A stretch of DNA of 44,437 bases from assembly GCA_022616535.1 (NCBI GenBank), contig JAKEEM010000014.1, positions 1 to 44,437 on the forward strand, written 5' to 3'. Origin of the DNA: Chlorobiota bacterium (GTDB lineage: Bacteria > Bacteroidota > Ignavibacteria > Tepidaquicellales > OLB5). Positions 33,669 to 38,288 of this stretch are shown one piece after another. Within the stretch, counting starts at the first letter, position 1; each line of letters begins with the position of its first letter. A program made the position numbers and the translations under genes. Under the pieces are notes generated by a model. The model ran no database searches, was not told the DNA's origin, and saw only the letters and a program-made list of their open reading frames with translations.

Positions 33669-34091
33669 TTAGGAGCGCAATGTTTTACGTAATTTTAAAT
33701 AGAAAATATAGCACAATACGCCGCTTATTGCACCGCCAATTACAGCCCAAATTAAATCATGAATTAAAATCTTAAAACTCCACTCTTTAAACATACCGAT
33801 TAAAATAAAACTGAAAAACCCGATAACCGACAAATTGTAATACACACTCCACAAGATAGAATTATACAACTTCGTTTCAGTCTTAACTGATTTAAAATAA
33901 AAATATACAAATCCGTATACCAATAGCGCATTTGCAATATTCATTGCCCAGATGTTTTGTTCATTCATTGAATATAAAGAGGGCACTGAATAATAAAGCT
34001 TATGAAACACATTATTGTGCCAGAAAAACCATAATATAGTATAGGGAATATACGTTAAGGTTGCCGTTAAAATGAATTTATAATTTATCAT
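33669..34091 (-). CDS. DUF2177-like integral membrane protein
   Basis: A 140-residue protein with four hydrophobic segments (about residues 5-25, 48-68, 80-102 and 112-133). EWSFKILIHDLIWAVIGGAI resembles the WPLKVTxxDMIWG motif of DUF2177/DUF1761-type membrane proteins, whose function is unknown. Its ATG overlaps the stop codon of the upstream channel gene (ATGA), so translation is coupled. The pair may form a functional unit in the inner membrane; that is inference from the overlap only. Confidence 0.7.
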   Translation of the reverse strand: MINYKFILTATLTYIPYTILWFFWHNNVFHKLYYSVPSLYSMNEQNIWAMNIANALLVYGFVYFYFKSVKTETKLYNSILWSVYYNLSVIGFFSFILIGMFKEWSFKILIHDLIWAVIGGAISGVLCYIFYLKLRKTLRS

Positions 34092-35833
34092 TGTATTACC
34101 TGGCTTATCAATGAAACACTGAAAATACTCAGTAAAAACCAGCCGATAAATCCTTCGAGAATTGTTAAGTATCGTGGAATACCTTTGATTGGAATCTGGC
34201 CAAATCCCAGGGTTGAAAACACATTTAAGCTCAAAGCAACCGAATCAAGTATATGAATCAATAAAAACCAAAGAACTGTCACCATAAAAACAACGCCGTA
34301 AAGGACTGTCGCAATTACTTGTTTTGAGCGGCTCATTTTCTCCCATTCATCAGGGAATATGTCAATTACTTTATAGAAAAATTTGGTAGGTTTATCCTTT
34401 AAAAGCTCAAGAAAATAAAGCGGCTTTCCGAAAATATGAAAATACCATGGTACTTTGCCTTTGGAATCTGCCACGAAATTAATGTAATCAGCGTAAGTGG
34501 GAGTTTTTTGTTCTTTAGCTATAATGGAGTCTTCTATTTCAAGCAGCGATTTAGGGGATGACAGGTAATGCCCGTAAACTTTCAGCTGGTCGAACAGCGA
34601 ACGCCTGTGAAAAGATGTAATTGTATACGGAAAGAAAAAATAAATCCCTGCAAAAAACAAAAGAACATATAATGCAATTTGAATTGCTTTTAAAGGATTA
34701 GTTCCGTAGTCGCAAAAGGTTTTCAGAAAAACATTCATTAGGTAGTTGAAAAAAAGTGTTTTGTCTTTACCGCTTGCATATTGATTTTTAAGATAGGAGG
34801 TTTCGATATCCTTCCATTCTATATAGCAGGCATTCGCGGCTATACGGTTACCCTGTGACTTAAAAGCATTATAAAAATTTGCATAACAGCTAATCAGACT
34901 GTTAAATAGTAATTCACTGTTAATACTGTCAGCATCCTGACCGCTTAATACTTTCTGAGTTTTCTGATCAAGAATTGCAATTCTGTTTTTTTCAACCGTT
35001 GACCATTGAATTCTTGTATTAATCGGGTTAACGTTAAAGGCATCCATAACAATTTTCCCGTTGAATTTCGAATCATAAGTAACAAATGCATTTGCAACCG
35101 TGGTTTCGGATAAATCAAGCGTTGCATTTACATTGTTGCCGATAAATCTGAGATTGTTAAAATCCGATTCGGAGATTTCGATAAAAAATTGAGTGTTATT
35201 TCCTAAGTGCGGAGGCAAATCAAAATCACAGCTTTGGATAGTTAAATCAAATCCTTCAAGCTTATTTGAGAGGCGGAACAACCGAGGTTCCATATCGAGC
35301 GCATCAGTATCGCCGAAGTGACTTTCATTTATGGAGATTTTACAGTTTTTAAATGTAAGTCTGTCATTAACGTTATTTCTCACAAACTTAAATCCGTGTT
35401 CAAGTCTGCAGCTATCGATATCGATAAACTCGATATTGTTTCCGTAAATCCTTAGGGTTTTTTTGAATGTGCAGTCTTTAAAAATCGCTTTGATTGGAGT
35501 GCAATTGAAAATCGCAAAGTAATCAAGAAAGGTAATATTGCGGAGAACTAACCAGTAGTCTAAATCGAAGTCACAGTTCAAAAGCCGGATGCTTGATTTT
35601 ATTAAAAGCTCTGGAGCCCCTTCATTAAACCTTTTATCCATCCCGTATTTGTCGTCGTTAAAAATATATCTTATCTTTACATTTTCAAATGTTGTGTGCT
35701 TTTCGCATTTAGCCATTTCTTCGACAAATTTCGTAAAGGTAACGGTTTGATTATCAATCGGCGAGTCGGAAAAAACCGCTACCGGTAAACAAAGTGCTGA
35801 TAATATTGCAATTAATTTTTTCAAGAAGGGCAA
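34088..35833 (-). CDS. Ion channel with N-terminal predicted periplasmic repeat domain
   Basis: A 581-residue protein with an unusual layout. A signal peptide (LKKLIAILSALCLPVAVFS) is followed by about 330 residues of short repeating strands such as FIDIDSCRLEHGF, RLTFKNCKISINESHF and LDLSETTVANAF, as in pentapeptide or beta-helix proteins. Then come a membrane helix (about 388-407), a cytoplasmic loop, a second helix (507-530), a pore segment LNVFSTLGFGQIPIKG and a last helix reaching the C-terminus. STLGFGQ resembles the TVGYG selectivity filter of two-TM K+ channels. The listed start is TTG 35833, which falls in a TAAATTTG box; the TTG at 35824 may be the real start. The following DUF2177-like gene overlaps its stop codon. 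Confidence 0.75.
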   Translation of the reverse strand: MPFLKKLIAILSALCLPVAVFSDSPIDNQTVTFTKFVEEMAKCEKHTTFENVKIRYIFNDDKYGMDKRFNEGAPELLIKSSIRLLNCDFDLDYWLVLRNITFLDYFAIFNCTPIKAIFKDCTFKKTLRIYGNNIEFIDIDSCRLEHGFKFVRNNVNDRLTFKNCKISINESHFGDTDALDMEPRLFRLSNKLEGFDLTIQSCDFDLPPHLGNNTQFFIEISESDFNNLRFIGNNVNATLDLSETTVANAFVTYDSKFNGKIVMDAFNVNPINTRIQWSTVEKNRIAILDQKTQKVLSGQDADSINSELLFNSLISCYANFYNAFKSQGNRIAANACYIEWKDIETSYLKNQYASGKDKTLFFNYLMNVFLKTFCDYGTNPLKAIQIALYVLLFFAGIYFFFPYTITSFHRRSLFDQLKVYGHYLSSPKSLLEIEDSIIAKEQKTPTYADYINFVADSKGKVPWYFHIFGKPLYFLELLKDKPTKFFYKVIDIFPDEWEKMSRSKQVIATVLYGVVFMVTVLWFLLIHILDSVALSLNVFSTLGFGQIPIKGIPRYLTILEGFIGWFLLSIFSVSLISQVIQ

Positions 35834-36104
35834 ATTTATTCAATGAGTTTGAATAATTAAACCCAATAAAAAAAGCAGTTTTTATAAAAATCCCTCTTTA
35901 AGAGGGGATAACCAGGAGGAAAATGATGCAGAGAAACAACATGATTTAATAAACCGGTATGTTTTATTAAGCAGTCCGCGTAATAAAAACATAGTTTAAT
36001 CTGCATTACAAAATTAATAATCGGAAAAATGTTTGTATGTAGCAATTAAAACGAAGTTTTTGTAGTGAAATGTATTACAGTTAAAATTAAGGTTAGATTA
36101 ATGG
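35834..36104. other. Intergenic region with small palindrome
   Basis: 271 bases between pyk and the ion channel gene. CCCTCTT-T-AAGAGGG (35892-35906) is a near-perfect palindrome, similar in flavour to the C-rich repeats near 2349. A 62-codon frame over it shows no family features and is not called. Confidence 0.4.
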
Positions 36105-37559: not shown

Positions 37560-38288
37560 CTATAATTTAATTGTTCTCACAACTTTTATTATTCCATTAA
37601 TATCATATAATTTTACATTGTCGCTTTTCAGATTATCAGTTATCTTTTTATTAAACCCCTTTTGAGAAAATATTAACAACTCGTTGCAATTTTTCTCAAT
37701 TTGTCTTTTTGTTAAGCTGTCGATAAATTCAATTTCTTTTACCTCGGTAGATTTAGTATTAAAGGATAAATAAAAATTGCTCCCATCCTTGGAGAGAATT
37801 CTGTCATTTGGATTATCATCGGAATATAAATCGTCTTTAACTTCATAACCGAGGTGCATTAAAATATTCATTACTTCTTTTTCAAAGCTTAATCCGTCTA
37901 ATATTCTCCAGAAACTGTAATCTTTTCTTATCCTCCAAAAATCATACTGGTCTCTTTCTTCATTATACTTTGTTATTGTTTTATGCTCTTTAGTCTTTTC
38001 TTTTATGTGTTTGAAATAAAACATCTCACCGAGCTTAAAAAGGACCGCGGGAACTCCGACACAAATAATTCCAAGACTTGCAAATAAAAATACCTGCATA
38101 ACAAACTGCAGCAACGTAGCAGGCTTTACCTGCATGTAATAAAAGACGTAAATAACCAATCCGAATGCAACGCCTATCCCGATTGTTAAATGATGAGTTA
38201 GAATATCGGAAATCTTTTTATCCCTGATTTCACTTTGCCTCATTCGTGCTTTGGTTAAGCCAAATTTATGATAAGTTGGGACTTTCAT
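37560..38288 (-). CDS. Membrane protein with C-terminal Mrr-like (restriction-endonuclease fold) domain
   Basis: A 242-residue protein. Two adjacent hydrophobic helices (about residues 33-52 and 60-87) are followed by a charged linker and a soluble domain from about residue 127. LDGLSFEKEVMNILMHLGYEVKDD, then NPNDRILSKDGSNFYLSFNTK, fit the alpha-beta start and the D...(E/Q)xK strand of Mrr/restriction-endonuclease-like domains. The catalytic D and K may survive (NDRI, NTK), but the usual E/Q is replaced by Asn. Such proteins often act on foreign DNA, but membrane-bound, degenerate versions occur without known function. The ATG immediately follows the TAA stop of the lipoprotein gene. The family assignment is from motif reading and needs a profile search. 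Confidence 0.6.
   Translation of the reverse strand: MKVPTYHKFGLTKARMRQSEIRDKKISDILTHHLTIGIGVAFGLVIYVFYYMQVKPATLLQFVMQVFLFASLGIICVGVPAVLFKLGEMFYFKHIKEKTKEHKTITKYNEERDQYDFWRIRKDYSFWRILDGLSFEKEVMNILMHLGYEVKDDLYSDDNPNDRILSKDGSNFYLSFNTKSTEVKEIEFIDSLTKRQIEKNCNELLIFSQKGFNKKITDNLKSDNVKLYDINGIIKVVRTIKL

Follow-up and report, generated by a model that had tools for sequence, protein, structure and literature searches.

A Bacteroidota protein family joining a K+-channel-type pore to a predicted periplasmic beta-solenoid

Most of what is known about bacterial K+ channels concerns types that are gated by domains in the cytosol. The window analyzed here, by which we mean the whole 44,437-nucleotide stretch of Chlorobiota DNA, encodes a protein in which a leader and a long repeat domain precede a short segment resembling the pore of a K+ channel, and the locus therefore raises the question of whether this segment is a K+-channel-type pore, on which side of the membrane the repeats lie, and what they might do to the pore. 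The best explanation, in which we place somewhat better than even confidence, is an inner-membrane K+-channel-type protein with a sensor that faces the periplasm.

The channel gene, its neighborhood and its distribution

One long open reading frame (ORF) occupies the interval 35833..34088 of the minus strand, and encodes 581 amino acids when read from the TTG at 35833; residue numbering throughout follows this reading. The start is more likely to be the next TTG, at 35824, with which the starts of close relatives align, giving a protein of 578 amino acids. On the basis of the ORF list and these aligned starts, the channel gene is placed at 34088..35824 (minus strand), ending in a TGA stop codon at 34090-34088. 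The original prediction had the main points of the anatomy right, although it omitted the strand and gave the repeat region about 330 residues rather than the approximately 275 found here. A Bacteroidota-type -7 promoter box, TAAATTTG (35831..35838, minus strand), lies 6 nt before the TTG at 35824 (box and codon together span 35822-35838), and similar TAnnTTT[GA] boxes are present 4-6 nt before TTG or GTG codons in six close relatives (L005, L007, L008, L009, L011, and L012). In addition, a further GTTTAATTATTC upstream of the box is common to the window, L008, L009, and L012, and is found with one mismatch in L011. Within the window itself, TAnnTTTG stands 3-9 nt before long ORFs in 6 of 48 cases, the highest value among 30 letter permutations. 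These patterns suggest that the channel mRNA may be leaderless and begin with a non-AUG codon.

The downstream gene (33669..34091, minus strand) encodes a DUF2177 membrane protein, with a Pfam score of 26.7 bits against a cut-off of 26.9. It shares 4 nt (ATGA) with the end of the channel gene, where its own start and the channel stop coincide, and is a possible operon partner. In relatives, the DUF2177 gene follows the channel in the same order but does not adjoin it, with an IS200-like ORF lying between the two in L014 and L015. ORFs that by eye resemble IS200/REP-type transposases are located on either side of the channel at L014 6114-6587, L015 8165-8629, and L016 5350-5826. The order pyruvate kinase, channel, DUF2177, DsbD-like protein is kept in the loci read of the window's family, in which the channel is a single-copy gene in 13 of 15 genomes (one copy is cut by a contig end), and no common neighbor was found outside this family when a conserved partner gene was sought. 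The window also encodes a two-helix membrane protein (37560-38288, minus strand) that keeps its place beside pyruvate kinase in relatives and has a weak match, below cut-off, to Mrr-type nucleases (E 0.0022). The source genome has one copy of the channel and a separate, ordinary RCK-type K+ channel identified by Pfam (L018); the latter adjoins a gene for a PycTM (Pycsar effector) protein (L018 2472-3008, minus strand; 117.5 bits).

Searching the phylum retrieved homologues down to 23-27% identity. Matches were obtained in 28 of the 391 genomes of the class sample, a few of which have only ordinary channels or fragments, and in 12 of the 394 genomes of the phylum sample, so occurrence across Bacteroidota is patchy. 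No relative was seen in plasmids, phages, or viral contigs at the sensitivity used, and the NCBIfam and PADLOC libraries gave no match for the channel protein. Several loci elsewhere have features of their own. A flavobacterial homologue (L066 1-11283) is embedded in a run of roughly 12 tandem genes for DUF6090-type membrane proteins, and at L031 1348-2656 a short ORF ending in the M2-like IGWFKLKIFSVSLISQLLN directly precedes a DUF6090 gene. Another flavobacterial homologue (L028 1207-2077) looks broken: its reading frame does not continue past the linker, and a pore in that frame was not found.

The pore and the beta-solenoid

The C-terminal channel unit is composed of a first helix, M1 (residues 505-528; 34250..34321, minus strand), assigned from hydropathy and an Ion_trans_2 match at 518-578, a pore helix with selectivity filter, P (residues 530-546; 34196..34246, minus strand), assigned from conservation among relatives and hhalign comparison with K+ channels, and a second helix, M2 (residues 553-581; 34091..34177, minus strand), recognized by conservation and the distance from filter to C-terminus. 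The TLGFG filter itself (residues 541-545; 34213-34199, minus strand) is part of the STLGFGQ segment. Taken alone, the channel protein matches Ion_trans_2 (PF07885) weakly in hmmscan (E 0.003; 17.8 bits against a cut-off of 22.5), and the same comparison yields 22.8 bits, for a cut-off of 22.5, in the genome search with the channel's neighbors. Three relatives (L024, L026, and L033) exceed the Pfam cut-off, however, and TLG[FY]G is present between two hydrophobic helices in all 27 distinct full-length members. Moreover, a family pore profile built from the last 82 residues aligns in register with K+ channels taken from the source genome and others of its class (hhalign E 1.7e-8; score 46.1), compared with a best score of 22.7 among 100 column-shuffled versions of the channels and 11.1 for the reversed control. 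When this profile was searched against the PDB, 15 of 15 chains at E<1 were K+ channels (best E 0.13), with the filter in register among the matches listed; the PDB search with the single channel sequence was uninformative and that with a profile of the C-terminal half returned one unrelated chain (E 0.15). The pore assignment, weak for the channel alone, is therefore settled by its relatives. As judged from these profile comparisons, the pore is homologous to that of K+ channels and its filter is not a chance resemblance, which bears out the expectation of a K+-channel-type pore with two flanking helices.

Some details of the pore are nevertheless atypical. The residue following the filter is Gln, Glu, Asn, or Ala instead of the usual Asp, giving the flanks GFGQ or GYGE, and Asn-537 is invariant within the pore helix. 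AlphaFold assigns pLDDT values of 27-47 to the pore in both the full-length model and that of the C-terminal half, the full-length alignment consisting of five sequences with the diverse relatives from the genome searches left out. The pore would be selective for K+ and, going by the K+-channel fold class, would be formed by four subunits.

For the repeat domain (residues 27-300; 34934..35755, minus strand), placed by AlphaFold and VIA-align, we obtained a predicted parallel beta-solenoid of about 275 residues. The pLDDT is mostly 76-93 over residues 30-300, with dips near residues 61-70, 171-180, and 261-280; each coil takes up some 20-24 residues and C-x-[F/L/I] recurs. The strand repeats had been expected to form a beta-helix, and the structure prediction agrees. 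VIA-align of the model retrieves beta-helix and pentapeptide-repeat chains (Z 12-15; 180-270 residues aligned), Foldseek gives no match at E <0.001 (HalA is first, at E 0.12), and a viral structure library returned only weak beta-helix matches. With chains of both kinds among the VIA-align matches, the solenoid may be either the right-handed quadrilateral beta-helix of pentapeptide-repeat proteins or another type of beta-helix. None of the Pfam pentapeptide models scores above cut-off in the channel protein or in any relative scanned. Given that pentapeptide-repeat proteins are defined by at least 8 contiguous consensus pentapeptides (PMC8145042), we rule out a classical pentapeptide-repeat protein on this result, and describe the domain as a beta-solenoid.

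Orientation in the membrane and proposed gating

The leader predicted at the N-terminus (residues 4-22; 35768..35824, minus strand) has, by alignment and hydropathy, the KK n-region, hydrophobic core, and ...VFS|DS end of a signal peptide, and its character is conserved in relatives. Sites resembling those of signal peptidase (A|D, S|D, or A|Q) recur in close and distant members, close relatives reading ...A|DS or ...S|DS, and a hydrophobic leader is retained in distant members at only 13% identity. Most family members have a hydropathy peak near the N-terminus; in L003, L011, L027, and L049 to L052 the N-terminal hydropathy is below threshold or the start is uncertain. The extra helix anticipated before the channel unit is also found. 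This helix, TM0 (residues 380-402; 34628..34696, minus strand), has a hydropathy of 1.8-2.5 in all members, and is followed by a TM0-M1 linker of about 100 amino acids (residues 404-503; 34325..34624, minus strand) that contains 16 Lys/Arg vs 13 Asp/Glu and is predicted to be cytosolic. The net charge of +3 on the linker and -8 on the solenoid provides moderate positive-inside support, and in L029, the shortest homologue, the linker is reduced to a short, strongly basic stretch. Given that M1 runs outward in canonical K+ channels and that one further helix precedes it, the solenoid should lie outside. Leader, helix parity, and basic linker thus agree on a solenoid that is probably periplasmic, in line with the earlier placement of the repeats outside the cytoplasm.

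Conservation is distributed very unevenly over these parts. In distant members, identity is 77% in M2, 54% in P, 45% in TM0, and 36% in the connector, vs 14-16% in the solenoid, linker, and M1 (16% in the solenoid). Three paralogues within one genome (G356) are 75-89% identical in M2 and 16-21% in the solenoid. A nearly fixed pore combined with diverging solenoids is the pattern expected of exchangeable sensors on one pore. The connector itself (residues 307-378; 34700..34915, minus strand), which runs from YANFYNAFKSQGNRIAANACYIEWKDIETSYL to FCDYGT and was delimited by helices in the AlphaFold model and by conservation, probably forms a coupling path together with TM0. The filter is separated from the C-terminus by 41 residues in all 27 members, and the protein ends at M2, leaving no RCK or other C-terminal gating domain. 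Lacking an M2 extension, it has no counterpart to the ring through which RCK and Kir channels are gated, and a C-terminal domain cannot be the source of gating.

These features can be combined in a mechanism. The N-terminus would be exported by the Sec signal peptide and the beta-solenoid would fold outside; TM0 would cross inward, leaving the linker in the cytosol, after which M1 would cross outward, the pore loop enter from outside, and M2 return inward, as in the canonical K+-channel orientation. Four solenoids might then read a periplasmic ligand or mechanical state, and could either pass the signal along the helical connector, TM0, and linker as far as M1 or act on the outer pore mouth without intermediates. 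The original prediction of pore gating by the outer domain is consistent with the observed pattern, in that paralogues vary the solenoid and keep the pore and no C-terminal gating domain is present; that is the extent of the agreement, and nothing that we found supports its suggestion that the state of the cell wall could be the stimulus. Support is good for the architecture; in function, the protein would be a K+ channel gated from outside.

HalA, alternative readings and other known systems

The best solved match of the channel protein by profile is HalA (PDB 9nyi; E 0.0021), which we take to be the Hailong phage-defence channel gated by DNA, with both its solenoid and its DNA ligand in the cytosol. 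The remark in the original prediction that such repeats are usually cytoplasmic in fusions fits HalA, the nearest solved fusion. Secondary sources describe block of the HalA ion channel by poly-dA adducts of HalB (PMC13275509) and its relief by phage exonucleases (PMC12657230), and HalA is also treated second-hand in PMC12265719. Like HalA, our protein has a solenoid, a helical connector with a YY/CY..K motif, and a two-helix pore region in which M1-P-M2 extends to the C-terminus with little or no C-terminal domain. The HalA homologue L062, on a Sulfitobacter plasmid, differs in lacking a signal peptide and, by eye, a hydrophobic TM0, both of which are present here, and hence its solenoid would be cytosolic. 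In addition, its filter region reads FGYTN instead of TLGFG, and it is overlapped downstream by a nucleotidyltransferase gene, whereas no HalB-like neighbor was seen in the window, L014-L017, or L063-L070, apart from an MNT/HEPN-like pair (by eye) a few genes upstream in L069. Pairwise comparison with the HalA homologue gives E 1.8e-5 for the solenoid, a value generic to such repeats, and a pore alignment that keeps the register but, at E 0.26, falls short of significance. Moreover, our HalA search in Bacteroidota yielded only short pentapeptide-type repeat stretches, implying that the HalA profile match is partly generic. The match thus appears weak and mostly due to the solenoid; the channel resembles HalA in plan, and these comparisons do not establish membership of Hailong.

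The same likeness underlies two of the alternatives that we considered. With HalA as the nearest solved protein by both profile and fold, and its DNA ligand being cytosolic, the N-terminal stretch here might not be exported and the solenoid might serve a cytosolic-sensor channel. With TM0 ahead of M1, however, a solenoid in the cytosol would leave the pore inverted, and this reading is very improbable in view of the recurring leader with its signal-peptidase-like sites, the basic linker after TM0 (strongly so in L029), and the lack of a leader and, by eye, of a hydrophobic TM0 in L062. It is also conceivable that the family comprises defence or guard channels resembling Hailong HalA, which would be closed by a ligand, be opened by phage damage, and sense in the envelope. 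We judge this distinctly unlikely: variable sensors and a common order of parts, from the solenoid and YY/CY..K connector to a terminal M1-P-M2, are what it would predict, but the gene has no HalB-like neighbor and no PADLOC match, is a single-copy syntenic core gene in the window's family rather than part of a defence island, and has only the weak HalA pore match noted above.

An alternative of a different kind arises from the pore itself, which may be non-conducting or not K+ selective and be conserved for assembly, leaving the protein to act as a membrane sensor or scaffold. The GFGQ/GYGE filter flanks, the invariant Asn-537, and the low pLDDT of the modelled pore all point in this direction; T-L-G-[FY]-G in 27 of 27 members, together with P and M2 as the best conserved parts, fits a working filter, and on balance we regard a scaffold as unlikely. 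Returning to the K+-channel-type protein with a periplasm-facing sensor, a wider reading can be offered tentatively and with considerable doubt. The proteins may represent an as yet unnamed family of bacterial K+ channels gated from outside, whose beta-solenoids, brought to the periplasm by a leader and TM0, are exchangeable and drive a nearly invariant pore; such a family would in effect be related to HalA with its topology inverted, surveying the envelope rather than the cytosol. A conserved family that has its solenoid outside, lacks a C-terminal domain, and combines diverging sensors with a fixed pore would provide a simple system for studying the opening of a K+ pore by an extracytoplasmic domain, and hints at one means by which signals from the envelope or the environment might be converted into membrane potential in bacteria. 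The likeness to HalA also raises the question of whether the same architecture is used on both faces of the membrane.

A literature search retrieved no report of an exported solenoid fused to a K+ pore, and an externally sensed ion-channel family of this kind appears not to have been described previously. Its components have separate precedents. Exported or luminal pentapeptide-repeat proteins include Rfr32 and the luminal domain of SV2 (PMC8145042), and YjbI (PMC12864828). As in these proteins, the beta-solenoid would be positioned on the non-cytosolic side of the membrane, and SV2 attaches one to a transporter; unlike our protein, however, they are without a K+-channel pore, and the repeats here fail the pentapeptide models. 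The pore shares M1-P-M2 with T-x-G-[YF]-G, in register, with KirBac3.1 and RCK channels such as that of the source genome (L018). In contrast to two-helix bacterial K+ channels, there is no C-terminal RCK or Kir domain, and an extra TM0 and an N-terminal, presumably periplasmic, domain are present. In channels of the GluR0 type, the extracytoplasmic sensor is a periplasmic-binding-protein domain divided by the pore, which is itself inverted. The family resembles them in placing a putative extracytoplasmic sensor on a K+-type pore, but its sensor is wholly N-terminal and has no periplasmic-binding-protein-like Pfam domain.
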